Program-made: the position numbers and the translations under genes
In this document: in pieces, positions 581 through 12,996 of the stretch
How the letters are laid out: each line of letters starts with the position of its first letter
Position numbering within the stretch: the first letter of the stretch is position 1
Assembly: GCA_945631445.1 (NCBI GenBank)
Contig: CALZCR010000012.1
Span: forward strand, 1 to 12,996
DNA length: 12,996 nucleotides
Reading direction: 5' to 3'
Source: an uncultured Corynebacterium sp.
GTDB taxonomy: Bacteria > Actinomycetota > Actinomycetes > Mycobacteriales > Mycobacteriaceae
The notes under the pieces: model-generated
Database searches by the model: none
What the model was told of the DNA's origin: nothing
What the model saw: the letters and a program-made list of their open reading frames with translations, nothing else

Positions 581-716
581 TGTCTGAGCTGTCGCCGACG
601 TGCGTCTCACGTGCGTCCGGCGCTGATGACCACCTATCGAAACCCAACTCAGGCACGATCCTCGGCCACCGCGCGGGGAACCGACCTGAAGTTCAATCCT
701 GAGGGACACGATTTTC

Positions 717-989
717 ATGAAGAACGACATCCACCCGGACTACCACCCGGTAGTCTTCCAGGATGCGGGCACGGGCTTCCAGTTCCTGACCCGCTCCACC
801 GCCACGTCGGACCGCACGGTCGAGTTCGAGGGCAACGAGTACCCGCTGATCGTCGTTGACGTCACCAGCGAGTCCCACCCGTTCTGGACCGGCGCCCAGC
901 GCGTCATGGACACGGCCGGCCGCGTCGAGAAGTTCCAGAAGCGCTTCGGTGGCATGGCCCGCCGCAAGAAAAAGTCCGACAACAACTAA
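717..989 (+). CDS. rpmE2: 50S ribosomal protein L31 type B
   Basis: This 90-residue protein begins [16 protein letters not shown] and is a large-subunit protein of the zinc-free type B L31 class. Type B features are the length (80-90 residues against about 70 for the zinc-binding form), absence of any cysteine, the N-terminal IHPxYxPVVFxD, the central SHPFWTG segment around residues 52-58, and a basic C-terminus (RRKKK). GAGGG at 701-705 is a plausible ribosome binding site 11 bases before the ATG. rpmF follows after 20 bases, so the two are co-transcribed. In many bacteria type B L31 replaces the zinc form when zinc is scarce; whether this one is zinc-controlled cannot be seen from the promoter. 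Confidence 0.96.
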
Positions 990-1339: not shown

Positions 1340-2035
1340 ATGAACATTTTGGTCGCCGACGACGAACAGGGCGTGCGGGACTCCCTCCAACGCTCGCTCG
1401 CCTTCAACGGGTACGGCGTGCGCCTGGCCGCTGACGGCGAGGAAGCGCTTTCCCTCATTGAGGAGGAGTTGCCGGACCTGGTCATCCTGGACATCCTCAT
1501 GCCCGGACTGGACGGGCTGGAGGTCTGCCGTACGCTGCGGAGCAGTGGTTACGAGCGGCCGGTCCTGATGCTCACCGCCCGCGGCGACGTCGCGGACCGG
1601 GTGGCGGGGCTCGACGCCGGCGCCGACGACTACCTCCCCAAGCCCTTCGCCCTCGAAGAGCTCCTCGCCCGGGTACGTTCCCTGGCCCGACGCTGCGCCA
1701 TCGAATCCCGGGGCAAGGGCGCGCAGGACGCGGAGCTGGCTTTCGAGGACCTCTCCCTGAACGTGCAGACGCGCGACGTGCGCCGCGGCGACCGGGCCAT
1801 CAGTCTCACGCGCACGGAGTTCGCCCTCATGCAACTGCTCATGCAAAACCCTCGTCACGTGCTGTCGCGGGCGACGATCCTCGAGGAAGTGTGGGGGTAC
1901 GACTTCCCCACGTCCGGGAACGCCCTCGAGGTCTACATCGGGTATCTCCGCCGCAAGACGGAGGCCGGGGGCGAGGAGCGTCTGATCCACACCGTGCGCG
2001 GCGTCGGCTACGTGTTGCGGGGCAGCACGCCGTGA
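1340..2035 (+). CDS. mprA: OmpR/PhoB-family response regulator (MprA-like)
   Basis: This 231-residue cytoplasmic DNA-binding regulator receives phosphate from the adjacent kinase. The receiver domain (about 2-115) has the acidic pair D7-D8, phospho-acceptor D51 in [12 protein letters not shown]79 and K101 (LPKPF). The winged-helix effector domain (about 135-228) shows [19 protein letters not shown] and the C-terminal [11 protein letters not shown] typical of the OmpR class. Length is normal. Its stop overlaps the GTG of the kinase (GTGA), implying translational coupling. Position between rpmF and a kinase-htrA pair matches M. tuberculosis mprA, an envelope-stress regulator, and C. glutamicum cgtR2; that orthology is inferred from synteny. 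Ribosome binding is weak (AGGAC 12 bases upstream). Confidence 0.93.
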
Positions 2036-3036
2036 CCGGGTGGCGGCTGGCTGTAACGGCCATCGCCGTCATCGCCTCGGGAGCGTGGCCGCTGGCAGTC
2101 GTCTGGCTGATGATCGGCGAGGACTTTAGTTGGCCTCGCCTCCTGCTCGTCGGTTGCGGCGCGCTCGTCACGCTGGCCGCCGGGTTGTCCCTGGCGTGGT
2201 GGTCCGCAGCGGACCGGGCTTCGGTTCGACAGGTGAAGCAGGCGATGGACCGGGTCGCCGCAACAGGCGACCTGGGACCGACGCACGAGATTTCCGATCC
2301 GGGGGTGAGCGGTTCTTTCCACCACCTGCTGGCTTCCTGGCAGGAGTCCCGGATGCGGCAGGAGCGGCGGATCACGGAAGTCGGCCACGACCTGCGGAAC
2401 CCGTTGACCGCACTGCGGGTCAACGTCGAGTTGTTGTTGTCGCTGCACAGAGGTGATCGCCCGCGGGGACTTCCCCCCGAGCAACTCCGGGCACTGGAGC
2501 GGGACGTGCTCACCCAGCTAGACGAATTCGCCGGGCTCATCGACGATCTCGTCGACTTGTCCGGAGACGCGGCCGGTCCGGTGCGTTTCGACGCCGTCGT
2601 GGAGACCGCGTGTGAACGGGCCCGTTGCCGACGCGGAGACGTGGAAGTCCAGGTGACCACCATGCCGTGGCTGGTGCGCGGTGACGGCGGCGCTCTGGGC
2701 AGGGGCGTGACCAACCTGGTGGACAACGCCGTGAAGTGGTCGCCCTCCGGCGGCGTCGTCCGGGTGCGGTTGGCCCGGGACGGCGACAGGCGAGCCGTGC
2801 TGACCGTCGCGGACTCCGGGCCGGGCGTGGCCGTAGGGGAACGCGACCGCATCTTCGATCGTTTCTACCGTCCCCCGGACGTGCGCAACACCCCGGGGTC
2901 CGGGTTGGGCCTGGCCATCGTCAAAGACGCGGTGGAAGACGTCGGCGGAAGCGTCGAAGTCGGCGAATCCGGGGACGGCGGGGCGTTGTTCACCGCCCAC
3001 GTCCCCGGCTCCCCGGGGCAGCATCGCCCGTCGTGA
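2032..3036 (+). CDS. mprB: Sensor histidine kinase (MprB-like) with no sizeable extracytoplasmic domain
   Basis: This 334-residue membrane kinase starts at the GTG overlapping the mprA stop. Two hydrophobic segments (about 6-28 and 36-57) are joined by only about seven residues (GEDFSWP), so there is practically no outside sensor loop. A juxtamembrane linker (58-112) precedes the dimerisation helix with phospho-acceptor H119 in [13 protein letters not shown]. The ATPase domain shows the N box ([10 protein letters not shown]), G1 (DSGPGV), F box (FDRFYRP) and G2 ([10 protein letters not shown]). M. tuberculosis MprB has about 500 residues with a large periplasmic domain, so this one resembles intramembrane-sensing kinases. 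The upstream in-frame start at 1891 would lie inside mprA and is rejected. The neighbouring HtrA protease suggests sensing of membrane or envelope damage (inference). Confidence 0.9.
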
Positions 3037-3130
3037 CTACACTGGCATGTCAGAAAACGTCCAGAGACCGGACGGCTGACATTGACCAGAGTTAAAGCGC
3101 GATCACATCCGTGAGGGGCAAGATAGGGAT

Positions 3131-4345
3131 ATGACGAACACCACCGGGGACAACTCCTACCACCCGGGGCAGCGGCCCCAGTCGCCTTACCAGCCTTTCC
3201 ATGCCACTGGGCAGCCCCCGACTCCCCCTGAGACGCCGGTCGAACAGAAGGGCAAGGAAGAAAAACGGGGCCGCGGCATGGGCGGCGTCATCGCCCTCGT
3301 CGCGGTTTTGAGTCTGCTCCTCGGTGGGGTGGCCGGCGGGGTGGCCGGGTACGCGGTCTCTTCGCCGGATGAGGAGCCGGCCCCTGACTCTGGGCCGGAC
3401 AACGCGTTGACCGCCCCGCCGGCAGACGCGCCGGAGACCCCGGCGGGGAGCGTGGAAGAGGTCGCCGACGCCGTGCTGCCCACCGTGGTCTCCATCCAGG
3501 TGGTCACCCCGTTGTCGGCGGGCGAAGGCTCGGGCTCCATCTTCACCTCCGACGGCTACGTGTTGACCAACCACCACGTCGTCGACGGCGCCGAGGACGG
3601 CGCGATGCAGGTCACCCTGAATGACGGCACCGACATGACCGCGGATTTCGTGGCCTCTGACGCGGCGACGGACATTGCCGTGATCAAGATCCGGGACGCC
3701 GAAAACTTGCCGACCATCCAGTTCGGGGACTCCGAACAGCTCGCCGTCGGCCAACAGGTCGTCGCCGTCGGCGCTCCGCTGGGGTTGTCCGGCACCGTCA
3801 CCAGCGGCATCGTCTCGGCGATGGATCGCCCGGTCCGCGCTTCCCAGGGCGGCGGCGAGTCGTCGCTGATCGACGCCATCCAGACCGACGCCGCCATCAA
3901 TCCCGGCAACTCGGGCGGGCCGTTGGTGGACATGAACGGCAACCTGGTGGGCATGAACTCCGTCATCGCCACCTTGTCCACCGGCAACACCGCCGGTTCC
4001 ATCGGGCTCGGGTTCGCGATCCCCTCAAACTTCGCCCAACGCGTCGCGGAACAGTTGATCGCCGGGGGCGAGGCCAGCCAGCCCATGCTGGGCGTGACCG
4101 TCGACGGCGCCAACCCCGTGGACGGGGCACTCATCGTCGGCGTGCAGCCGGGCGGGCCGGGGGCGGACGCAGGGTTGGAGGAGGGGGAGGTGATCACCCG
4201 CCTCAACGACCGAAACATCGACACCTCGGACGGGCTCATCGCTGCAGTTCGTTCCCGTGATTTCGGAGAGACCGTCACCTTGGAGGTGGTGGACCCGGAA
4301 ACGGACGAGCGCAAAGAGGTTCAGGTTACGCTGAGCGTCGAGTAG
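3131..4345 (+). CDS. pepD: Membrane-anchored HtrA/DegP-type serine protease (PepD-like)
   Basis: This 404-residue protease acts outside the membrane on misfolded envelope proteins. A proline-rich cytoplasmic N-terminus (1-45) ends in a basic stretch before one TM helix (about 51-76). A linker rich in P, D and E leads to the trypsin-like domain with the full triad: H149 (TNHHVVDG), D181 (TDIAVIKI) and S261 (NPGNSGGPLV). A single PDZ domain (about 315-400) contains the GxxPGGPGADAGLEEGE substrate-groove motif. The architecture equals M. tuberculosis PepD (Rv0983), which is also downstream of mprAB. The ATG is preceded by GAGGGG (3113-3118). A 94-base gap after mprB leaves room for its own promoter, but I can assign none. 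In mycobacteria pepD is under MprA and SigE control; that is inferred, not visible, here. Confidence 0.95.
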   Translation: MTNTTGDNSYHPGQRPQSPYQPFHATGQPPTPPETPVEQKGKEEKRGRGMGGVIALVAVLSLLLGGVAGGVAGYAVSSPDEEPAPDSGPDNALTAPPADAPETPAGSVEEVADAVLPTVVSIQVVTPLSAGEGSGSIFTSDGYVLTNHHVVDGAEDGAMQVTLNDGTDMTADFVASDAATDIAVIKIRDAENLPTIQFGDSEQLAVGQQVVAVGAPLGLSGTVTSGIVSAMDRPVRASQGGGESSLIDAIQTDAAINPGNSGGPLVDMNGNLVGMNSVIATLSTGNTAGSIGLGFAIPSNFAQRVAEQLIAGGEASQPMLGVTVDGANPVDGALIVGVQPGGPGADAGLEEGEVITRLNDRNIDTSDGLIAAVRSRDFGETVTLEVVDPETDERKEVQVTLSVE

Positions 4346-4398
4346 CGTTAGCGACTAGATTCATTCCCATAACAGGGAACTTAAGTTTGAGGAGAAAC

Positions 4399-4980
4399 AT
4401 GGACACGATCCCCGTCGCTCGCGAAGCATCCGACGAGCTGAACGACATCGTCGAGCCCAATGACGAGTTTCTGCGGGCCACTGAGGAAGCGGAGGACATG
4501 CCGGCCCGTCGGCGGGCGTTGGTCGTGTTGGTCAGCGACCACCACAACGGCGCTGAGGACGACACCGACCGCCTGATGACGGAGCTGCTCATCGAATGCG
4601 GTTTCCAGGTCGACGCGGTCGTCCGCGTCAAGTCGAAGAAGAGCGAGATCCGCCAGGCCATCGAGACCGCCGTGGTGGGCGGCGTCGACCTGGTGCTGAC
4701 GGTGGGGGGCACTGGCGTCGGTCCGCGCGACCGCACCCCGGACGCCACCCTGACCGTCCTGGACCAGGAGGTTCCGGGCATCGCGCAGGCGCTGCGGGAT
4801 TCCGGGCAGGCGTGCGGCGCCGTGGACGCGGTGGTCTCCCGCGGCGTGTCCGGCGTCTCCGGTTCGACGGTCATCGTCAACCTCGCCTCGTCGCGGGCCG
4901 CGATCCGGGACGGCATGGCGGCGCTTCCCCCGCTGGTGCACCACGTGGTCGATGAGCTGCAGACCTACAGCGTGCACTGA
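4399..4980 (+). CDS. moaB: MoaB/Mog-family molybdopterin-binding-fold protein (MoaB2-like)
   Basis: This 193-residue protein has the fold that adenylylates molybdopterin in cofactor synthesis. An acidic N-terminal extension of about 36 residues precedes the domain. Signatures are VLVSDHHNG (43-51), the nucleotide/pterin motif GGTG at 103-106 with D111 in PRDRTP, and the C-terminal GVSGVSGSTVIVNLA. The start chosen is ATG 4399, which has GAGGAGA at 4389-4395; an in-frame TTG at 4387 overlaps that Shine-Dalgarno and is unlikely. It follows pepD by 53 bases and is probably translationally linked to the small gene 3 bases downstream. Position matches M. tuberculosis moaB2. The M. smegmatis MoaB2 has been reported to bind the housekeeping sigma factor, so a non-metabolic role is possible. 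No other molybdopterin synthesis gene is in the window. Confidence 0.87.
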   Translation: MDTIPVAREASDELNDIVEPNDEFLRATEEAEDMPARRRALVVLVSDHHNGAEDDTDRLMTELLIECGFQVDAVVRVKSKKSEIRQAIETAVVGGVDLVLTVGGTGVGPRDRTPDATLTVLDQEVPGIAQALRDSGQACGAVDAVVSRGVSGVSGSTVIVNLASSRAAIRDGMAALPPLVHHVVDELQTYSVH

Positions 4981-4982
4981 TC

Positions 4983-5210
4983 ATGTCTGACCCACAGCAC
5001 AGCCCGCGCCGCAAAGACCGCCGCCGGGTCCGCCGTCCCAGCGCGGCGGAGCACATCGACCGCAGCGCGGATACCCCGCGGCACGGTTTCGCCGACGACC
5101 TGGTCTCCGATGACGCCGAACGTCCCGTGCCCGTCGAGGACAGTCAGACAGACGACCCGGCGGGCGAGGAATTCTTGCGGGAGCAGCGCCCTCCTCACTA
5201 CGGGGAGTGA
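4983..5210 (+). CDS. Small highly charged protein downstream of moaB, function unknown
   Basis: This 75-residue frame starts 3 bases after the moaB stop, so it is probably translated by coupling. The N-terminal third is strongly basic (RRKDRRRVRRP), the remainder acidic, ending EEFLREQRPPHYGE. There is no cysteine, signal peptide or hydrophobic segment, so it should be a soluble, largely disordered cytoplasmic protein. I do not recognise the family. Support for it being real is its tight placement, its stop only 14 bases from the convergent mscL stop, and the structured-looking C-terminal FLREQRPPHYG. The charge segregation could suit nucleic-acid or protein binding, but that is speculation. 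It could still be a chance ORF in GC-rich DNA. Confidence 0.65.
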   Translation: MSDPQHSPRRKDRRRVRRPSAAEHIDRSADTPRHGFADDLVSDDAERPVPVEDSQTDDPAGEEFLREQRPPHYGE

Positions 5211-5224
5211 CGCAAGCGCACGGA

Positions 5225-5635
5225 CTACTCCTTGGCGGAAGAATCCTTGTCCGCCAGCAGATCACGGATTTCTGACAGCAACTGCACCTCGGTGGTCTCC
5301 GGCTCTTCCGGGTCGACGTCCTGCTTCCGCTTCTGGATCTCCTGGAGTTTGTTCATCGGCAGCACCAGCGCGAAGTAGATGACCGCCGCGACGATCAAGA
5401 AGTTGACGATCGCGGTGATCACGGCGCCGAAGTCGAGGAAGGTGGAGTCATCGCCCGGGCGGATGTGAAATCCCAGCCCGGAGACGTCCGGATTGCCCAA
5501 GGAGGCGATGAGTGGGTCGAGCAGATTCTGGGTGAACGAAGTGACGATGGCGGTGAAAGCGGCGCCGATGACGACCGCCACGGCCAAGTCGATGACGTTG
5601 CCGCGCATGATGAAATCTCTGAAACCCTTGAGCAT
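5225..5635 (-). CDS. mscL: Large-conductance mechanosensitive channel MscL
   Basis: This 136-residue inner-membrane protein forms a homopentameric pore that opens under membrane tension and releases solutes on hypo-osmotic shock. The amphipathic N-terminus (MLKGFRDFIMRGNVIDLAV) runs into TM1 with the pore motif AVAVVIGAAFTAIVTS (about 18-33). A periplasmic loop follows (about 45-67), then TM2 (about 70-92, ITAIVNFLIVAAVIYFALV) and the cytoplasmic bundle helix TEVQLLSEIRDLLADK near 115-130. Length is normal for the family. AAAGGA (5645-5650 on the complement), 9 bases before the ATG, supports the start. It converges on the small gene with 14 bases between stops and no obvious terminator. It lies 60 bases after the SAF-protein gene and may be read with it. 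Confidence 0.97.
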   Translation of the reverse strand: MLKGFRDFIMRGNVIDLAVAVVIGAAFTAIVTSFTQNLLDPLIASLGNPDVSGLGFHIRPGDDSTFLDFGAVITAIVNFLIVAAVIYFALVLPMNKLQEIQKRKQDVDPEEPETTEVQLLSEIRDLLADKDSSAKE

Positions 5636-5695
5636 GTGCCGGGGTCCTTTCTGAGGAGTGTGGCCGAATAGTTAGAAGGCACCTTACACAGTGTC

Positions 5696-6349
5696 TCACC
5701 GGCCGTGTGCACGGTCTCCCGTGAGCACGACCGCCAGCGGGGACGTCAGCGAAGCCGCCGCGACCCGCTGCGCCGCTTCGTTCTCCAAGGCCACCAGCAA
5801 AGACTCTGAACCGGCTTCGGCGCCTGCCAGGATCACCCGGGCCCCGTCGGCCACCATCACCGGGTCCGTCCCCTCTGCGGCGACCGTGACGATGGACACG
5901 GTGTCCCCGTGCCGCAACAACGTCGCGACGTCCGGGTCCGCCAACGTCACCGGGACCATGGTGGCTGAGGAGGGGCCTTCGTCCCTCGAGCCCACCAGCG
6001 TGTTGATCAGCTCCGGTCCGATCAGCCGCGCCGCGGTGACCGGTTCGCCGGCGTCGGCCGCCGCGGTGACCACTAGGCCGACGGCCTCTTGCGGGTCTGT
6101 GAGGGCGGAGTCGGGGATGAGGTCGGCGGGCACGGCGCGGAGCACGACGTCGTCTTCCCCCAGCGACGCACCGGCGGCGACGGCGCCGGCGAAAACGACG
6201 ATGCGGGGATGCTCGGCCGTCGCCGAACGGACCACGGACGTCACCGCCGCCAGCACGAGGGCGGCGGCCAGCAGCCGGCGGAGCAGGAGGGAACGGCGGT
6301 GTCCGGGTGGACGCAACAGGGCGTGCAGCGAAGATGCGGAAGCGGTCAC
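5696..6349 (-). CDS. SAF-domain membrane-anchored protein, function unknown
   Basis: This 217-residue protein begins with a GTG. A basic stretch (PPGHRRSLLLRR) leads into one hydrophobic helix (about 22-42), giving a signal-anchor with the remainder outside the membrane. Residues about 48-112 form an SAF domain, recognised from VVFAGAVAAGASLGEDDV, the AVPADLIPDSALTD segment and the AGEPVTAARLIG end. The rest shows VPVTLADPDVATLLRHGDTV, as in CpaB/RcpC-like proteins of pilus assembly and FlgA-type chaperones. No pilus or flagellar genes are nearby, so a pilus role is not supported; the position between fthC and mscL is what relatives show. Start is uncertain because AAGGGAG sits almost against the GTG. 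It lies 36 bases after fthC, on the same strand and probably in its operon. Confidence 0.82.
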   Translation of the reverse strand: MTASASSLHALLRPPGHRRSLLLRRLLAAALVLAAVTSVVRSATAEHPRIVVFAGAVAAGASLGEDDVVLRAVPADLIPDSALTDPQEAVGLVVTAAADAGEPVTAARLIGPELINTLVGSRDEGPSSATMVPVTLADPDVATLLRHGDTVSIVTVAAEGTDPVMVADGARVILAGAEAGSESLLVALENEAAQRVAAASLTSPLAVVLTGDRAHGR

Positions 6350-6385
6350 ACTCCCTTGGACTGTCCGCGGGGCGCCCGGGGTTCC

Positions 6386-6988
6386 CTACACGCGGTGGAG
6401 CGCTTCGGCCGTGACGATGACGTTGACGGGCATGTCATGGGCTTCGACGGGGACGTCGTCGGTGACCTCGTGATCGAAAAGAACGACGGCCAGCAACGGC
6501 TGCGGGGCTTCAGCCTCCGCCAGGCGGGCCAGCGTGCGGTCGTAGTAGCCGGCGCCTTTGCCCAACCGGAAACCCCGGCGGTTGGCGCCCAGGGCGGGCA
6601 GAAAGACGATGTCGCAGTCCAGCAGGGCCCGCCAGTCCCGGCGTTCGCCGACGGGTTCGGGGATGTTTAAATCTCCCTTGGCCATGGCTTCCTCCCCCTC
6701 GTAGGGGGCCCACAGCATGGCGCCTTCGGCCTCGGAAATCGGCAACAGGACAGTACCCGTGGCCGCGCGGAGGGCGGGAAGAAAACCCGGGCCACCGGGC
6801 TCGTCGGGAAGCGGGTGGTACGCGGCGACCGTCTCGGCGCCGTGTTCATGGATCAGGTCCACGCACCTGGCGATCAGGGCCTCGTCCTGCCGCCTGCGGG
6901 CGGCGTCGTCGAGTTTTTGCCGCTGCTGCTTGAGGGTGCTGCGCAAGACGCGTTTTGTTTCGACGGGGTCACTGATGTTCATGCTCAT
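6386..6988 (-). CDS. fthC: 5-formyltetrahydrofolate cyclo-ligase
   Basis: This 200-residue cytoplasmic enzyme converts 5-formyltetrahydrofolate to 5,10-methenyltetrahydrofolate using ATP, returning a storage folate to one-carbon metabolism. The family signature G139-F-R-L-G-K-G-A-G-Y-Y-D150 is intact, with the preceding DIVFLPALGANRRG and the N-terminal KRVLRSTLKQQRQKL helix also typical. Length matches the usual 180-200 residues. Two in-frame ATGs (residues 1 and 3) are possible starts. The gene is divergent from galU across a 92-base gap with a perfect hairpin, and the SAF-protein gene follows 36 bases downstream. This pairing and its position next to galU recur in M. tuberculosis (Rv0992c). 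Confidence 0.95.
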   Translation of the reverse strand: MSMNISDPVETKRVLRSTLKQQRQKLDDAARRRQDEALIARCVDLIHEHGAETVAAYHPLPDEPGGPGFLPALRAATGTVLLPISEAEGAMLWAPYEGEEAMAKGDLNIPEPVGERRDWRALLDCDIVFLPALGANRRGFRLGKGAGYYDRTLARLAEAEAPQPLLAVVLFDHEVTDDVPVEAHDMPVNVIVTAEALHRV

Positions 6989-7004
6989 GGGCTTCAGCCT
7001 AATC

Positions 7005-7025
7005 CCGCCGGGGAAAACCCGGCGG
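7005..7025. repeat. Perfect inverted repeat between fthC and galU
   Basis: CCGCCGGG (7005-7012) and CCCGGCGG (7018-7025) are perfectly complementary around the loop GAAAA. It lies 17-37 bases upstream of the fthC ATG, so it is either a leader hairpin of that transcript or an operator in the divergent promoter region. No T-run follows in either direction, which argues against a terminator. Confidence 0.55.
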
Positions 7026-7067
7026 AAGGCGGCCGGGTCTTTGCCGATGACGGCCTCGCGGAGAAGG

Positions 7068-7073
7068 TAAGGT
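7068..7073 (+). promoter_or_regulatory. Candidate -10 element for galU, possibly leaderless
   Basis: TAAGGT fits the actinobacterial TAnnnT -10 pattern and ends 7 bases before the galU ATG, the spacing expected when transcription starts at the start codon. TTGCCG at 7041-7046 could be a -35, but its spacing (21 bases) is long. GAGAAGG at 7061-7067 could alternatively act as a distant Shine-Dalgarno on a longer transcript. Confidence 0.3.
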
Positions 7074-7080
7074 CTCGGTC

Positions 7081-8037
7081 ATGGTTGAGACGAATGACTT
7101 TCACCCCAACGGCGTGCGCACGGTCGTCGTGCCGGCCGCCGGCATGGGGACCCGGTTCCTGCCGGCGACGAAGACGGTGCCGAAGGAGCTGCTGCCGGTG
7201 GTCGATACGCCGGGCATCGAATTGATCGCGGAAGAGGCGTCGGCGCTGGGGGCGTCGCGTCTGGCGGTGATCACCGCCCCCTCCAAGGACGAGGTGCTGG
7301 CGCACTTCGGTGAGTTCCCGGGCCTGGTCAAGACGTTGGAGGCTCGCGGCAAAGACGAGCAGGTGGCCAAGGTCAGGCGTGCCTCTGAATTGATTCAGCC
7401 GGTGGCGGTGGAACAGGAACAGCCGCTGGGTCTGGGGCACGCTGTCGGACTGGCCGAGGACGTGCTCGACGAGGACGAGGACGCGTTCGCCGTCATGCTG
7501 CCGGACGACCTGGTGTTGCCGGAGAACGGGCGGCCGGGCGTGGTGGAGTTGATGTGCCGGGTGCGTGAGCGATTCGGCGGCAGCGTGTTGTGCGCGTTCG
7601 AGGTCGAGCGCGACGAGGTGTTCAACTACGGCGTCTTCGACGTCGCAGAAATTGACGGGGCGTCCGGACTGCCGGGGGAGCTGGTCAAGTCCGTGACCGG
7701 GATGGTGGAGAAACCGGAGCCGGCGGCGGCGCCGTCGACGCTGGTGGCCGCGGGGCGCTACCTGCTGGACCGGGCGGTCTTCGACGCGTTGCGCCGGATC
7801 ACCCCGGGTCAGGGCGGCGAGCTGCAGCTGACGGACGCCATCGAGTTGATGATCCAGGAGGGGCACCCGGTGCACGTCGTGGTGCACACGGGCAAGCGCC
7901 ACGACCTGGGGAATCCGGCGGGCTACATTCCCGCGAACGTGGATTTCGGCCTGCATCATCCGAAGTACGGCCCGGCGTTGTACCGTGCGATCAAGCAGGT
8001 CGTCGCCGACTTCGAGGCGGAGCAGGCGCAGAGCTAG
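7081..8037 (+). CDS. galU: UTP-glucose-1-phosphate uridylyltransferase
   Basis: This 318-residue cytoplasmic enzyme makes UDP-glucose from UTP and glucose 1-phosphate, feeding UDP-galactose for cell-wall arabinogalactan, trehalose and polysaccharide synthesis. The N-terminal nucleotide-binding signature VPAAGMGTRFLPATK (17-31) with KELLPV (35-40) is intact. The metal/sugar region LPDDLVLP has D142 and D143, and VEKP (209-212) follows as in the GalU family. GGELQLTDAI and the C-terminal HTGKRHDLGNPAGY are also diagnostic. Length is normal. It is divergent from fthC and upstream of glp, from which it is separated by 80 bases containing a possible promoter. The synteny galU-moeA-rimJ is the same in M. 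tuberculosis (Rv0993-Rv0995). Confidence 0.96.
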   Translation: MVETNDFHPNGVRTVVVPAAGMGTRFLPATKTVPKELLPVVDTPGIELIAEEASALGASRLAVITAPSKDEVLAHFGEFPGLVKTLEARGKDEQVAKVRRASELIQPVAVEQEQPLGLGHAVGLAEDVLDEDEDAFAVMLPDDLVLPENGRPGVVELMCRVRERFGGSVLCAFEVERDEVFNYGVFDVAEIDGASGLPGELVKSVTGMVEKPEPAAAPSTLVAAGRYLLDRAVFDALRRITPGQGGELQLTDAIELMIQEGHPVHVVVHTGKRHDLGNPAGYIPANVDFGLHHPKYGPALYRAIKQVVADFEAEQAQS

Positions 8038-8070
8038 GTGTCATAACGCGGCCGGGCACGGTCGCGGCGG

Positions 8071-8076
8071 TAGGCT
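8071..8076 (+). promoter_or_regulatory. Candidate -10 element for the glp operon
   Basis: TAGGCT fits the TAnnnT pattern and lies 42 bases before the glp GTG, leaving room for the strong AGGAGG at 8105-8110. There is no clear -35. It lies in the 80-base gap after galU and suggests that glp, the acetyltransferase gene and perhaps glpR can be transcribed separately from galU. Confidence 0.35.
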
Positions 8077-8117
8077 AGCTGAGATGACGTCCGGTCGGCA
8101 CAACAGGAGGTAACCAC

Positions 8118-9383
8118 GTGCGTTCCGTGGAAGAACAGCTGGCGATCGTCACAGACGCCGCGGTCACCCCTGAACCCGTCCGCATGGCGATCACCGACGC
8201 GCTCGGGTTGATGAGCGCCGAGGAAGTCCAGGCCAGCGCCCCGCTGCCGGGCTTTCCGCAGGCCGCCATCGACGGCTACGCGGTGCGCGCCGTCGACGTC
8301 GGCGGCGAGCGTGCGCTGAGCGCCACGGGCGGCTCCGACCGCCCCGCCACGGCGCATTCCCTGCCCGTGGTGGGGGAGGTGCCCGCCGGATCCCGTCAAC
8401 GTATCCGCCTGCAGCCGCAGCAGGCGGTGCGTGTGCATACCGGCGCCCCGTTGCCCACGCTGGCGGACGCCGTGCTTCCGCTGGAATGGTCGGATCGCGG
8501 ACGCAAGCGCGTGACGCCGTTGCAGCCGGTGCGCTCCGGGGACTTCATGCGCCGCCGCGGCGACGACGTCCAGCCCGGCGACGTCGCCGTCACCGCCGGC
8601 ACCGTCCTGGGACCGGCGCAGATTGGGCTGCTCGCCGCCGTGGGACGCACCAAGGTGCTCGTGTACCCGCCACCCCGGGTCAGCGTCTTCAGCTTCGGCG
8701 CCGAATTAGTCGACGTCGACCAGGAACCCGGCCCCGGACAGGTCTACGACGTCGCCTCCTACGCGGTGGCCGCGGCGGCCGGGGAAGCCGGCGCCCAAGT
8801 CACCCGGGTGGGCCTTCTCGACGGCGAGCCCCGGCGGCTCCGGCAGAAGATCGAGTCCCAGCTGCAGCGCAGCGAAATGCTCGTCATCTCCGGCGCGGTC
8901 GGCGGCTCCGGGTCAGAGCTGATCCGGTCGGTGCTCGCCGAAATCGGCGACATCGACACCACCCGGGTGGCCATGCACCCCGGCTCCGTGCAGGGGTTCG
9001 GGCTGCTGGGGGAGGAGCGCATCCCGGTGTTTCTGCTGCCGAGCAACCCGGTCTCCGCCCTGGCGGCCTTTGAAGTGTTCATCCGGCCCGTGCTGCGGTT
9101 GTCCTTGGGCAAGCGTTCCGCGAATCGCCGCGTGGTGCGCGCCCGGGCCCTCAACCACGTCACCTCCACCCCCGGCCGCCGTGGTTACGTCCGCGCGCAA
9201 CTGATGCGCGACGCCCATTCCCAGGACTACCTGGTCGAAGGCCTCGGCGGGGCGACGGGTGCGCCGGCCCACCTGCTGGCCGGCCTGGCGGAGGCCAACG
9301 CCATGATCCGCATTCCCGAGGACGTCACGGAGATCCGCCCCGGCGACGTGGTCGACGTGCTCTTCTTGGCGCAGCGATCGTGA
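8118..9383 (+). CDS. glp: Gephyrin-like repurposed molybdotransferase Glp (MoeA fold)
   Basis: This 421-residue protein has the full MoeA domain order: PGFPQAAIDGYAVRAVDV near 46, VRVHTGAPLP near 105, RRRGDDVQPGD near 145, the molybdopterin-binding Mog-like domain with SFGAELVD at 192, and the beta-barrel C-terminus. Against E. coli MoeA several signatures have decayed: STGDEL reads SFGAEL (D to A195), GGVSVGExD reads GAVGGSGSE, IKPGKP reads MHPGSV with both lysines lost (H287, S290), and LPGNPVS reads LPSNPVS (S309). D52, D150 and E196 remain. Together with the membrane protein two genes downstream this matches C. glutamicum Glp, a divisome scaffold that binds FtsZ and its receptor GlpR (established there; inferred here). 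AGGAGG at 8105-8110 fixes the GTG start. Automatic annotation may call it MoeA. Confidence 0.88.
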   Translation: MRSVEEQLAIVTDAAVTPEPVRMAITDALGLMSAEEVQASAPLPGFPQAAIDGYAVRAVDVGGERALSATGGSDRPATAHSLPVVGEVPAGSRQRIRLQPQQAVRVHTGAPLPTLADAVLPLEWSDRGRKRVTPLQPVRSGDFMRRRGDDVQPGDVAVTAGTVLGPAQIGLLAAVGRTKVLVYPPPRVSVFSFGAELVDVDQEPGPGQVYDVASYAVAAAAGEAGAQVTRVGLLDGEPRRLRQKIESQLQRSEMLVISGAVGGSGSELIRSVLAEIGDIDTTRVAMHPGSVQGFGLLGEERIPVFLLPSNPVSALAAFEVFIRPVLRLSLGKRSANRRVVRARALNHVTSTPGRRGYVRAQLMRDAHSQDYLVEGLGGATGAPAHLLAGLAEANAMIRIPEDVTEIRPGDVVDVLFLAQRS

Positions 9384-9396
9384 CGGGACTCCGACT

Positions 9397-10092
9397 GTGC
9401 TCATAGACCCCTTCGGGCTCGCGGCCGCCCGCTTCGACAAACCCGCCACCGGCCCCCGCGACCCGGTGCATCCCGGCTGGCCGGAATCCACCCCGACTGT
9501 GCGGTTGCCCACCGGCGAAAAAATGCGGTTACGCCCACTGACCAGCCGGGACGGCGACGACTGGGCGGAGATCCGCCTCCTGGACGAACAATGGCTGCGC
9601 CCCGTGGAGCCCACCACCGCCGACACCTGGCAGGAGGCCCATTCCCCCGCTTCCTGGCGCAACACCTTCTCTTATCTGCGGGGATTGGCCTCGCGGGGCG
9701 TCGCGGTCCCGCTGGTCGTCGAGGTCGACGGCGAATTCGCGGGACAGACGACTATCGGCAACATCCAGCACGGCGCCGTCTCGGAGGCGTGGATCGGCTA
9801 CTGGGTCCATTCCGCCCACATGGGTAAGGGGGTGGCCACCGCTGCGTGCGCCTTGGGCACCGACCACGCCTTCTCCCGCATCGGGCTGCACCGGGTGACC
9901 GCCACTTACCTGCCGTCGAACCCGGCGTCCGGAAAAGTGCTGTTGACGGCCGGATTCCGGGAAGAGGGCCTCCTGCGCCGGAACCTGCACATCGACGGCG
10001 AGTGGCGGGACCACCACTTCGTGGCCCAGAACGCGGAGGACCACCCGGACACCTGTGTTTCCCGTCTGCGCAAGGCCGGTCGGCTACTCTAG
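9397..10092 (+). CDS. rimJ: GNAT-family N-acetyltransferase (RimJ/RimL-like)
   Basis: This 231-residue cytoplasmic acyltransferase should use acetyl-CoA to acetylate a protein N-terminus or amino group; the substrate is not evident. The GNAT core covers about 42-215: MRLRPLTSRDGDDW (motif C/D start), IGNIQHG, then GYWVHSAHMGKGVATAA with the CoA-pyrophosphate loop H141-M-G-K-G-V-A147, and the RVTATYLPSNPASGKVL and GFREEGLLRR segments typical of RimJ/RimL proteins. An N-terminal extension of about 35 residues (LIDPFGLAAARFDKPATGP) is unusual. It starts with GTG 13 bases after glp and has a poor Shine-Dalgarno, suggesting operon reading. Its placement between glp and glpR is conserved (Rv0994-Rv0996), so a link to the division proteins is possible but unproven. 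Confidence 0.88.
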   Translation: MLIDPFGLAAARFDKPATGPRDPVHPGWPESTPTVRLPTGEKMRLRPLTSRDGDDWAEIRLLDEQWLRPVEPTTADTWQEAHSPASWRNTFSYLRGLASRGVAVPLVVEVDGEFAGQTTIGNIQHGAVSEAWIGYWVHSAHMGKGVATAACALGTDHAFSRIGLHRVTATYLPSNPASGKVLLTAGFREEGLLRRNLHIDGEWRDHHFVAQNAEDHPDTCVSRLRKAGRLL

Positions 10093-10122
10093 TCCACAAT
10101 GCACGGCGTGGCTGGACAGGTG

Positions 10123-10136
10123 TGCCTGGCCAGGCA
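10123..10136. repeat. Perfect 14-bp palindrome upstream of glpR
   Basis: TGCCTGGCCAGGCA is a perfect inverted repeat without a loop, which suits a homodimeric DNA-binding protein better than an RNA hairpin. It is 56 bases before the glpR ATG, in the only sizeable gap (99 bases) of the glp-rimJ-glpR cluster. No T-run follows. I cannot name the regulator. Confidence 0.5.
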
Positions 10137-10191
10137 ATTACGCTTGTGGTGACCGACTGTTTCTCGAACGACGAAAGGTAGGCGACGGGGT

Positions 10192-11277
10192 ATGTCCGAT
10201 GGTTTGATGATCATCCTGGTCATCGTGGTGTGGCTCTTTGTCCTCGCACCGCTGTTGCTGCGTGGCCAGCGACCGATCAATAAAACCGGCGAAGCCTTCG
10301 ACGACACCCGCGTCGTCTATGAAGGAGGAAGCGGCGACATCCCCGCCCGCCGTCACCCCCGGGTGCTGCCGAAAGACGTCCGCTCCCGCGCCGAGGAAGA
10401 CGACGAGGACTACGAACTCGTCGAGGCGCTCACGGAGGAGGACGACCTGCTCATCGACGAGCGCCGCACTCCGCCGGTCACGGAGCCGGTGGAGGAGCTC
10501 GTCGTCGACGACCCCCGCGGGGAAGTCGTCGACGGGGAAGTGGTCGAGCAGCCCGTGGCTGAGCTCCCGCAGGGCGGGTCCACCGCCTACTCTGCGCTGG
10601 AGTCGGCCGAGGAGGTCACCGCGCCGCTCGAGGACGGCGACTTCTATGGGCACGACGACACCTATGTCACCGCCGCAGACTATCTGCATCCCGCCACTCG
10701 GACTCTGGCGGAACCCGTCCAGGAGCTGGAGCTGGACGAAGCCGAGCAGGATTTCGACGGCGAGGAACTGCTCGTCGAGGACGGCGACCTGACCGACGAG
10801 GACCTGGCTTTCGCCAAGCGACGCGCAGGCCGCGGAGGATGGGACCCGGAGTCGGACCGGCGCAACTCCGTCGACCGCTACCAGCGCCGCCGCCGCACCT
10901 TGGCGGGGCTGCTCGCGGCGGTGGCCGTGACCCTGGTGCTGAGCATCGTCGTCGGCGGGTGGGCGTGGGCCACGGTCCTGCTGACTGGCGCGCTGACCGC
11001 CGTCTACCTGGTCGCCCTGCGTAAGAAGGTGCACGAGGAAAAGGCGCTGCGCGCCCGCCGGATCCGGCAACTGCGTCGCGCCCGATTGGGCGTGCGCCGG
11101 GCGGACGACGCCGACGGCGGCGTCCCCCGCGAACTGCGCCGCCCGGGGGCGGTGGTGGTGGAACTCGACGACGAAAGCCCCGACTTCGATTACCTCAGCG
11201 TCACCGAAGCCTCCTTTGATCCGACCACCCTGCGCCCGGTCCGCGGCACGGAACTCGACCGCCGTCGCGTCGGGTAG
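10192..11277 (+). CDS. glpR: Divisome membrane receptor SepX/GlpR family protein
   Basis: This 361-residue membrane protein has one N-terminal TM helix (about 5-23), directly followed by RGQRPINKTGEAFDDTRVV. A long, very acidic, low-complexity cytoplasmic region follows (about 45-225). Two TM helices form a tight hairpin (about 238-258 and 259-279), and a basic then acidic tail ends the protein (280-361). The positive-inside rule puts the acidic region and the tail in the cytoplasm. No enzyme motif is visible. Architecture and its place after glp and rimJ match GlpR of C. glutamicum, the receptor that ties Glp to the division membrane, and Streptomyces SepX. The name has no relation to the glycerol repressor GlpR. 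ATG 10192 is the first start; Met6 is an alternative. A palindrome upstream suggests separate control. Confidence 0.83.
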   Translation: MSDGLMIILVIVVWLFVLAPLLLRGQRPINKTGEAFDDTRVVYEGGSGDIPARRHPRVLPKDVRSRAEEDDEDYELVEALTEEDDLLIDERRTPPVTEPVEELVVDDPRGEVVDGEVVEQPVAELPQGGSTAYSALESAEEVTAPLEDGDFYGHDDTYVTAADYLHPATRTLAEPVQELELDEAEQDFDGEELLVEDGDLTDEDLAFAKRRAGRGGWDPESDRRNSVDRYQRRRRTLAGLLAAVAVTLVLSIVVGGWAWATVLLTGALTAVYLVALRKKVHEEKALRARRIRQLRRARLGVRRADDADGGVPRELRRPGAVVVELDDESPDFDYLSVTEASFDPTTLRPVRGTELDRRRVG

Positions 11278-11327: not shown

Positions 11328-11403
11328 GGGGGCGTAGCTCAGTTGGTAGAGCGTCGCGTTCGCAATGCGAAGGTCAGGGGTTCGATTCCCCTCGTCTCCA
11401 CCA
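11328..11403 (+). tRNA. tRNA-Ala (anticodon CGC)
   Basis: The 76 bases fold as a full cloverleaf with encoded CCA (11401-11403). The acceptor stem GGGGGCG pairs with CGTCTCC and includes the G3-U70 wobble that marks alanine tRNAs. The D stem is GCTC/GAGC, and the anticodon stem TCGCG/TGCGA encloses loop TTCGCAA, giving anticodon CGC for codon GCG. The T arm is AGGGG-TTCGATT-CCCCT and the discriminator base is A. It lies 50 bases after glpR, with its last 30 bases overlapped antisense by the end of tag. Confidence 0.97.
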
Positions 11404-12081: not shown

Positions 12082-12489
12082 ATGGATAGGCCCGTGGTCA
12101 GAGATGCAGCGCTGCTGTTCCTGCGTGTCGTGCTCGGCGTGGTGTTCATCGCCCACGGTTGGGACCGGTGGTTTCTGAGCGGGATCGTCGAGACCACCGG
12201 CCAATTTTCCGCCTGGGGAGTGCCGCAGCCGCGCCTGTCCGCGTACTTGACCGCCACGGCGGAATTGCTGGGCGGGGCCCTGCTCGCCCTGGGGCTGTTG
12301 ACCACCGTGACAGCCGGCGCGCTGACGCTGCTGGTGGCCGCCGCACTCTACTTCGTGCATCTGGGCAACGGCTTTTTCGTCGCGCAGGGCGGAGTGGAAT
12401 ACCCCCTCGTGGTCATCGCGGCGCTGGTGATGATCGTGGTTTTTGGTTCCGGCCGGGCTAGTATCGACGGGGTGTTGCAGCGTGATTGA
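12082..12489 (+). CDS. DoxX-family integral membrane protein
   Basis: This 135-residue protein has four hydrophobic helices (about 8-25, 52-73, 75-95 and 107-124), the DoxX-family layout. Family traits are the N-terminal LLFLRVVLGVVFIAHGWDRW, the G-W-G-VPQP loop, and TATAELLGGALLALGLLT. DoxX relatives are linked to thiol or quinone-dependent redox reactions at the membrane; in M. tuberculosis a DoxX protein works with a superoxide dismutase and a thiosulfate sulfurtransferase-like partner. No such partner is next to this gene, so its reaction is unknown. It is divergent from tag, and its last eight bases overlap the GTG of the next gene, indicating a coupled pair. Confidence 0.88.
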   Translation: MDRPVVRDAALLFLRVVLGVVFIAHGWDRWFLSGIVETTGQFSAWGVPQPRLSAYLTATAELLGGALLALGLLTTVTAGALTLLVAAALYFVHLGNGFFVAQGGVEYPLVVIAALVMIVVFGSGRASIDGVLQRD

Positions 12490-12996
12490 TCATGATGAGG
12501 TGCAGGCGGCCCTGTCGGCGCGCCTCGACGGGGAGCCCTCCGGGCTCGACGAAGACGTCGTGGACGCGCACGTCGCGGGCTGCGAGACGTGTTCCCAGTT
12601 CTGGGAAGAGTCCCTGTCTTTGTCGCGGCGGTTGAATTTCGTGGAATCCTCCGGCGTCGGCATGAGCCCGCCGAAAGACCTCTCCGAGATCATCATCGCC
12701 GGGGTGGAGCCGGAGTGGCGCAAAAACTCCGCCAACCGCTTGGTCTCGCTGACCGTCGCCCGCGCCCTCGCCGCGCTGCTCGCGGTCGGACTGGTGGTCT
12801 GGGCGATCATGATGGTGCTGGACACCGGCGGACTGATGCAGCTCAGCAGCGACGGACGGGTGCTGTCCCCGGAGGCGCAGCCCGAGGTCGCGGCCCTGCT
12901 CATCGAAGGCGCGGCGGTGCGGCTGGCGCTGGCGGTCGGGCTGGGCCTGGCAGCCTGGCAACCGCGGATGGCGGGCGGAATGGCTCCGGTGGTGGC
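12482..12996 (+). CDS. Membrane protein with anti-sigma-type zinc finger (partial, runs off right edge)
   Basis: An open frame from GTG 12482 to the window end gives at least 171 residues and no stop. The N-terminus (about 5-42) holds a zinc-binding anti-sigma-like motif H30-x3-C34-x2-C37 (AHVAGCETC) followed by an aromatic FWEE. A soluble linker leads to a TM helix (about 92-112) and a second hydrophobic segment (about 144-159). This resembles membrane-bound zf-HC2 proteins such as anti-sigma factors, but no sigma-factor gene precedes it; it overlaps the DoxX-family gene by 8 bases. With two or more helices it may be a related membrane protein rather than a true anti-sigma factor. GTG at 12500 is an alternative start. 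Confidence 0.8.
   Translation, partial: MIDHDEVQAALSARLDGEPSGLDEDVVDAHVAGCETCSQFWEESLSLSRRLNFVESSGVGMSPPKDLSEIIIAGVEPEWRKNSANRLVSLTVARALAALLAVGLVVWAIMMVLDTGGLMQLSSDGRVLSPEAQPEVAALLIEGAAVRLALAVGLGLAAWQPRMAGGMAPVV

Follow-up and report, generated by a model that had tools for sequence, protein, structure and literature searches.

The Glp–GlpR division locus of an uncultured Corynebacterium and its probable origin from a molybdenum cofactor operon

Glp, GlpR and their gene order

The stretch of DNA analysed here as a whole, hereafter the window, comprises 12,996 nucleotides (contig CALZCR010000012.1) of an uncultured Corynebacterium sp., whose genome assembly (2.02 Mb in 362 contigs) is 77% complete. 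It carries three consecutive genes on the forward strand, coding for a MoeA-fold protein of 421 aa (8118–9383, GTG start), a GNAT acetyltransferase resembling RimJ (9397–10092, 231 aa, GTG start) and a membrane protein of 361 aa (10192–11277, ATG start). Such an arrangement, including three transmembrane (TM) segments and a long acidic region in the last product, was proposed in the first-pass annotation, and open reading frames (ORFs), Pfam domains, hydropathy and isoelectric points (pI) agree with it. Judged by sequence, the gene at 8118–9383 encodes Glp, a gephyrin-like scaffold of the divisome, and that at 10192–11277 its receptor SepX/GlpR, so that the locus adds another member to a system known from a 2023 publication.

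Glp consists of the Pfam domains MoeA_N, MoCF_biosynth and MoeA_C and scores 558.9 bits against the NCBIfam Glp_gephyrin model NF045515 (cut-off 475), compared with 332 bits, below the cut-off of 560, against the actinobacterial MoeA model. GlpR passes the SepX_GlpR model NF045516 with 253.4 bits (cut-off 160). The nearest solved structures for Glp are 8bve/8bvf (E = 6.4e-195), of which 8bvf is given as C. glutamicum Glp in the text of PMC11733289, the next being MoeA 1uz5 (4.8e-47). Thus the match to the C. glutamicum pair suggested at first reading is upheld by both curated cut-offs and by the structural neighbour, and a best match to a true MoeA, which would have spoken against it, was not obtained. 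The accompanying opinion that routine annotation hides the system has to be abandoned, since NCBIfam release 20 contains named models for both proteins.

Contacts of C. glutamicum Glp with the FtsZ peptide are reported to include V338, L343, L360, M361, R362, A364, Y369, L370 and F414 (PMC10522489). All nine residues are identical in Glp of the window, where numbers are higher by 2, and on this identity the FtsZ-binding hairpin (M361–L370 of C. glutamicum) is predicted at 9204–9233 of the forward strand; in the alignment M361, R362 and F414 occur in none of three Corynebacterium MoeAs. FtsZ of the same genome terminates with DDLDVPSFMR, possessing the L, V, P and F seen bound in the crystal. 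The motif YPPPR lies at residues 183–187 of Glp, the published feature being two proline-rich hinges between domains I and III. In the window the GlpR gene neighbours that of Glp, with the acetyltransferase lying between them.

Comparison encompassed 120 Mycobacteriales loci, namely 80 named ones (L003–L082) and 40 drawn from a survey of the genus described below (L097–L136). The named loci are the best 80 of 506 confirmed stretches, and hence nearest relatives rather than a random draw, titled Corynebacterium, Nocardia, Rhodococcus, Prescottella, Antrihabitans, Speluncibacter, Mycobacterium or Mycolicibacterium, with the exception of L034 and L078, which bear a family or order name only (L034, titled Actinomycetales bacterium, was counted with Corynebacterium); identity of the window Glp to the nearest of them is 77% at best. 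A seven-residue FtsZ signature (V, L360, M, R, Y, L370 and F, with L343 and A364 omitted because they vary among Glps, each being present in 39 of the 80 named loci) is exact in 111 of the 120. Glp, acetyltransferase and GlpR are consecutive on one strand in 119 loci, while the contig of the 120th (L029) stops shortly past the acetyltransferase, leaving no GlpR in the fetched DNA; this order is no accident.

No Pfam domain was found in GlpR and no solved relative was retrieved by sequence search at E up to 1. Its hydropathy peaks fall at residues 1–27 and 234–277, the second fitting two helices, so that hydropathy, taken alone, predicts three TM segments in the order TM1, acidic loop, TM2–TM3 and basic tail. 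Residues 24–235 are acidic (pI 4.22) and the tail, 276–361, is basic (pI 10.64), in agreement with the topology and charges published for C. glutamicum GlpR, whose intrinsically disordered regions IDR1 and IDR2 have pI 4.05 and 10.87, respectively (PMC10522489).

For C. glutamicum it is described that Glp dimers use the domain IV hairpin to bind the C-terminal peptide of FtsZ and associate tightly with GlpR, that the partner of GlpR is in turn the N-terminal domain of Wag31, and, as a model, that FtsZ keeps Glp/GlpR at the septum, restraining Wag31 until division is finished (PMC10522489). By orthology, Glp of the window would bind FtsZ and GlpR, and its GlpR would bind Wag31. The likeness to the Cgl0883/Cgl0885 pair (Martinez et al., 2023, PMC10522489) extends over fold, FtsZ contacts, gene order and the topology and charges of GlpR; as a difference, C. 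glutamicum possesses two further MoeA copies, none of which was found in the incomplete window assembly. We consider it very likely that the locus as a whole represents a Corynebacterium Glp–GlpR divisome module having a molybdenum-independent role. The system itself is already published, and what the comparison sharpens is when and where the conversion to it happened, bearing on the choice between a moonlighting and a repurposed actinobacterial Glp and on its timing.

The active site of Glp and genomes without MoaC

Besides Asp228, residues 59, 100, 142, 188 and 259 of MoeA, pointed to by MoeA studies, were scored as its active site. At the positions of E. coli MoeA Asp228 and Asp259, alignment places Gly236 (codon 8823–8825, forward strand) and Glu267 of the window Glp, which therefore fails to present the catalytic Asp expected of a molybdotransferase. 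Asp228 is described as catalytically relevant and Mg-binding (PMC9458074). Its site is occupied by Gly or Ala in 40 of 40 aligned Corynebacterium Glps, and Asp228 is kept in none of the 120 Mycobacteriales loci versus 29 of 30 genes from other families considered below; Asp259 is kept in 28 of the 120.

The survey of the genus covered 201 Corynebacterium genomes, the window genome included, with MoaC as the only marker of the cofactor pathway searched; it was found in 129 genomes and not found in 72. Glp exceeds its cut-off in 196 genomes, the remaining five being G078 (gene broken), G107 (split over contigs), G118 (53% complete), G153, where absence is unreadable because the stretch is masked, and G200, which is 90% complete and unexplained; joint loss of Glp, acetyltransferase and MoaB2, a MogA-fold protein likewise encoded in the window, was considered for the last two genomes and dropped. 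A single match to the Glp model characterizes 71 of the 72 genomes without MoaC, G078 having one Glp in two pieces, and at least two matches are present in 127 of the 129 with MoaC (single-match exceptions, G118 and G153). If only genomes of good quality (at least 90% complete, at most 5% contamination) are accounted for, 70 of 70 without MoaC keep Glp as the only detected MoeA-fold gene; GlpR, acetyltransferase and MoaB2 are matched in all 72. These 70 single-Glp genomes are new by comparison and differ from the text of the 2025 paper, which speaks of at least two MoeA-fold copies (PMC11733289), exceptions being possible in its figures and supplements. The word moaC is absent from the main texts of both Glp papers, and here, too, figures or supplements may hold exceptions.

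On the tree of 40 Glps, 20 of which come from the 72 genomes without MoaC and 20 from the 129 with it, the MoaC label changes 8 times (7–8 in bootstrap trees), five changes being forced by supported branches. Relaxed constraint in Glps deprived of MoaC was looked for as well: Pro301 is altered in 5 of 20 versus 1 of 20 with MoaC, a difference that is a hint only, with the remaining catalytic positions alike in both sets. Since Glp and MoaB2 persist without MoaC, and since Asp228 is gone in all Mycobacteriales Glps examined, Glp of the window most probably does not function as a molybdotransferase, and corynebacteria lacking MoaC argue for a task of Glp outside cofactor synthesis.

Relatives in other Actinomycetes and the origin of Glp

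A draw of 45 genomes across the class (own included, the others at least 90% complete) yielded 35 passing the Glp cut-off, that is, our own, three from the same family and 31 more, of which 30 (L228–L257, 21 families, taken as lying outside Mycobacteriales) were fetched and one, G213, was omitted owing to a contig end. All 30 genes pass NF045515, and the Glp model beats the MoeA model in each of the six run on both. Their six catalytic residues (DTDEDD) are intact in 28 of 30, with exceptions in L248 (D259E) and L256 (T100A, E188D and D228E), the FtsZ signature occurs in none, and neither M361 nor F414 is kept in any. In 28 of 30 loci moaC separates the Glp-clade gene from the acetyltransferase, and the same 28 hold a gene of moaB/mogA type; MoaC was detected in none of the fetched stretches of the 120 Mycobacteriales loci. 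GalU lies upstream in 24 of 30, a GlpR-like gene is present in 25 of 30 by weak profile matches, and 12 of the 30 genomes have no second match to the Glp model. Ten GlpR candidates, eight from these loci and those of L261 and L262, all match the SepX/GlpR models, six of them over a cut-off.

Judging by these residues and neighbours, the Glp-clade genes of other families are probably working MoeA enzymes, to which NCBIfam would give the name divisome protein Glp, and caution is advised where this equivalog name (NF045515) reaches probable cofactor enzymes outside Mycobacteriales. Streptomyces SepX (PMC8748795) belongs, by the NCBIfam names, to the same receptor family; SepX-like proteins of the other families sampled, in which Streptomyces was not identified, have mostly basic and shorter loops, and the adjoining MoeA is catalytically intact. 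Actinomycetes of other families with a catalytically complete clade member, usually near a SepX-type gene, are those that could harbour a true bacterial moonlighting gephyrin.

Four further loci below the Glp cut-off (L261, L262, L266 and L267) show altered sites; their fetched stretches lack both moaC and moaB and retain the acetyltransferase match; L261 and L262 also carry a GlpR-like gene, L262, read in overlapping long frames, being the least sure row. The altered residues differ between Mycobacteriales, L256 and these four, which, taken together, suggests repeated conversion, the tree being unable to count events. As to a single origin of the non-catalytic members, L256 stands apart from Mycobacteriales on supported branches, and the four others fall beside Mycobacteriales on long stems, so that this join may be false.

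The first loop of GlpR follows a similar taxonomic division. Its pI is below 6 in 81 of 82 Corynebacterium proteins, 20 of 35 from other Mycobacteriales and 2 of 25 from other families, and is 9 or higher in 1 of 82, 3 of 35 and 22 of 25, respectively, with median lengths of 237.5, 116 and 87 residues; three of 85 Corynebacterium loci are uncounted (one without GlpR, two not resolved). We suppose that the ancestral locus had the layout moeA-moaC-moaB-rimJ, usually accompanied by galU and a sepX-like gene, and that Glp arose from its catalytic MoeA in an ancestor of Mycobacteriales. In the conversion, moaC and moaB would have dropped out from their place between moeA and rimJ, Asp228 would have been lost and the FtsZ hairpin gained; the first loop of GlpR would have been switched from basic to acidic, chiefly in Corynebacterium. 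Taken as a whole, the scenario in which a cofactor operon was converted within Mycobacteriales to yield an FtsZ-binding, non-catalytic Glp appears probable on comparative grounds.

It has to be weighed against two other explanations. The MoeA-fold protein might be a working molybdotransferase moonlighting in division, as gephyrin does, for which one may quote the retention of Asp59, Thr100, Asp142, Glu188 and Pro298 in 40 of 40 Corynebacterium Glps as well as the six residues and the adjoining moaC and moaB, each in 28 of 30 loci elsewhere in the clade; yet none of 120 Mycobacteriales loci has Asp228, Glp persists in 70 of 70 good genomes without MoaC, and 127 of 129 genomes with MoaC hold further MoeA-fold matches, which renders this explanation very improbable. 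Alternatively, repurposing took place once and early for the entire actinobacterial Glp clade, as implied by the NCBIfam model and the 2025 paper. The clade including other-family members is indeed set off from the second MoeA copies with support of 98/96 and 30 of 30 fetched members pass the Glp cut-off, but DTDEDD in 28 of 30, the FtsZ signature in 0 of 30, adjoining moaC and moaB/mogA in 28 of 30 each and the sole match in 12 of 30 genomes make an early event unlikely. Several observations weigh against the favoured conversion within Mycobacteriales and the non-catalytic role. Asp59, Thr100, Asp142 and Glu188 are invariant even in the 20 Glps from genomes without MoaC, and part of the pocket is therefore still constrained. 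L254 has neither moaC nor moaB in the fetched stretch and a complete active site. The acidic loop of GlpR is found in just 20 of 35 other Mycobacteriales, and for the tail past the last TM the median pI is 7.0 in Corynebacterium (n = 82), 6.5 in other Mycobacteriales and 5.8 in other families, so that the basic-tail part of the published charge pattern is, by pI, not general. Finally, MoaC is present, with three matches to the Glp model, in G088, the nearest surveyed relative of the window genome, and the lack of MoaC in the latter may thus be an assembly gap at 77% completeness; for these reasons it is not claimed as an example of a pathway-less species.

The acetyltransferase, MoaB2 and surrounding genes

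The acetyltransferase has Pfam GNAT domains (PF13302, 1.4e-17). Its best NCBIfam match is NF008072, the E. coli S5 enzyme, at 79.8 bits, far under the cut-off of 190, so that the name RimJ given in the first-pass annotation denotes resemblance only. The nearest structure, PDB 6c30 (1.1e-62), is an M. smegmatis protein (PMC8072286) called RimJ in a review, and in another review Rv0995 figures as RimJ with S5 as its target. The gene is present in 120 of 120 Mycobacteriales loci, following directly after Glp in all 119 measured and, by position, in L029; all 30 loci of other families have it downstream of the Glp-clade gene, 3.9 kb off in L254. In these families it already stands 3′ of moeA-moaC-moaB, and neighbourhood alone thus provides no tie to division. 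The order of the cluster as initially described stands, and its implied specificity for the division pair does not; the acetyltransferase would predate the conversion of Glp as an older member of the locus. The words acetyltransferase and RimJ are absent from the main texts of both Glp papers, and no role for the gene was encountered among the literature matches listed.

Could this enzyme nevertheless be a working third component acetylating Glp, GlpR or another divisome protein? Its constant position, its match in 72 of 72 genomes without MoaC and 33 columns at least 97% conserved over 120 sequences speak for it, but the same position after moeA-moaC-moaB in other families does not. As an N-terminal substrate GlpR was rejected, its second residue being unconserved (Ser 39, Pro 37, Gly 14, others 27 among 117 resolved, two unresolved; starts were picked by hydropathy and Shine-Dalgarno score, a rule of thumb, and some may be wrong). 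Glp begins with Met-Arg-Ser/Thr in 115 of 120, and neither protein therefore offers a conserved N-terminal target of the usual type, which leaves a role as third component doubtful. Equally doubtful is the view of a bystander that acetylates the N terminus of S5 as RimJ proper does, suggested by the best NCBIfam match and by both reviews but contradicted by the score of 79.8 bits. S5 was in turn rejected as a substrate, its starts being mixed (MSER 6, MPGR 6 and MSGR 3 in 15 of 30 fetched loci parsed, with S5 of the window genome outside this sample). Proteins starting with Met-Pro, as 6 of these 15 do, are not expected to be acetylated.

MoaB2 (4387–4980, forward strand; PF00994, 5.4e-19) is a protein of MogA fold having Ser83 (codon 4633–4635) at the site of MogA Asp49, and so lacks the catalytic Asp of MogA. 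This Asp is replaced in 109 of 109 Mycobacteriales MoaB2 sequences (20 without MoaC, 19 with MoaC and 70 of the 80 named) whereas all 25 sequences from other families have it; for Asp82 the corresponding counts of retention are 17 of 20, 19 of 19, 67 of 70 and 25 of 25. MoaB2 forms one clade (100/100) drawn among MoaB of other families, on a stem of 1.12 changes per column compared with 1.77 for Glp. MoaB2 may be orthologous with the latter MoaB, in a tree whose root serves for drawing only and which holds no corynebacterial MogA. L091 has a partial MogA-like ORF that stands outside this tree, and in G128, a genome without MoaC, and G180 the frame of MoaB2 contains one internal TAG.

Gephyrin with its glycine receptor, like Glp, is a MoeA-fold dimer clustering a membrane partner and tied to a tubulin-type cytoskeleton (PMC10522489); gephyrin carries a fused MogA domain and keeps enzyme activity (PMC11733289), whereas in the window the MogA-fold protein has a gene of its own and lacks Asp49. 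MoaB2 of M. smegmatis (PMC11656743) shares with that of the window the MogA fold and Ser instead of the catalytic Asp; its published role is binding of sigma A, and the main text of that paper never mentions Glp or FtsZ. Because Glp and MoaB2 have both lost a key Asp, sit on long stems and are kept in one neighbourhood without MoaC, one might imagine a split gephyrin, in which a MoaB2 oligomer and the Glp dimer could form a septal lattice linking division to transcription via sigma A, an idea we regard as very improbable.

The region 1340–11277 comprises, in order, a response regulator and a kinase (by eye), an HtrA-type protease, MoaB2, MscL, a SAF-domain protein and folate cyclo-ligase on the opposite strand, the GalU-like gene, Glp, the acetyltransferase and GlpR, an order which corresponds to that of M. 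tuberculosis Rv0981–Rv0996. The GalU-like nucleotidyltransferase (7081–8037, forward strand; TIGR01099, 224.6 bits, short of the cut-off of 326.8) is a conserved upstream neighbour, preceding Glp in every one of the 80 loci L003–L082. At the left end of the window a short ORF resembling ribosomal protein L28 (108–344, reverse strand, by eye) precedes an Rfam L31-Corynebacteriaceae ribosomal leader (647–706, forward strand, 67.7 bits) located just 5′ of an L31-like ORF (717–989, forward strand, by eye). Directly after GlpR lies tRNA-Ala (CGC) at 11328–11403 of the forward strand, and past it the opposite strand holds an ORF similar to DNA-3-methyladenine glycosylase I (214.9 bits, cut-off 232.5). 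At the right end, after a DoxX-like ORF (by eye), an ORF cut by the window edge (12443–12994, forward strand) resembles, by eye, a membrane anti-sigma factor.

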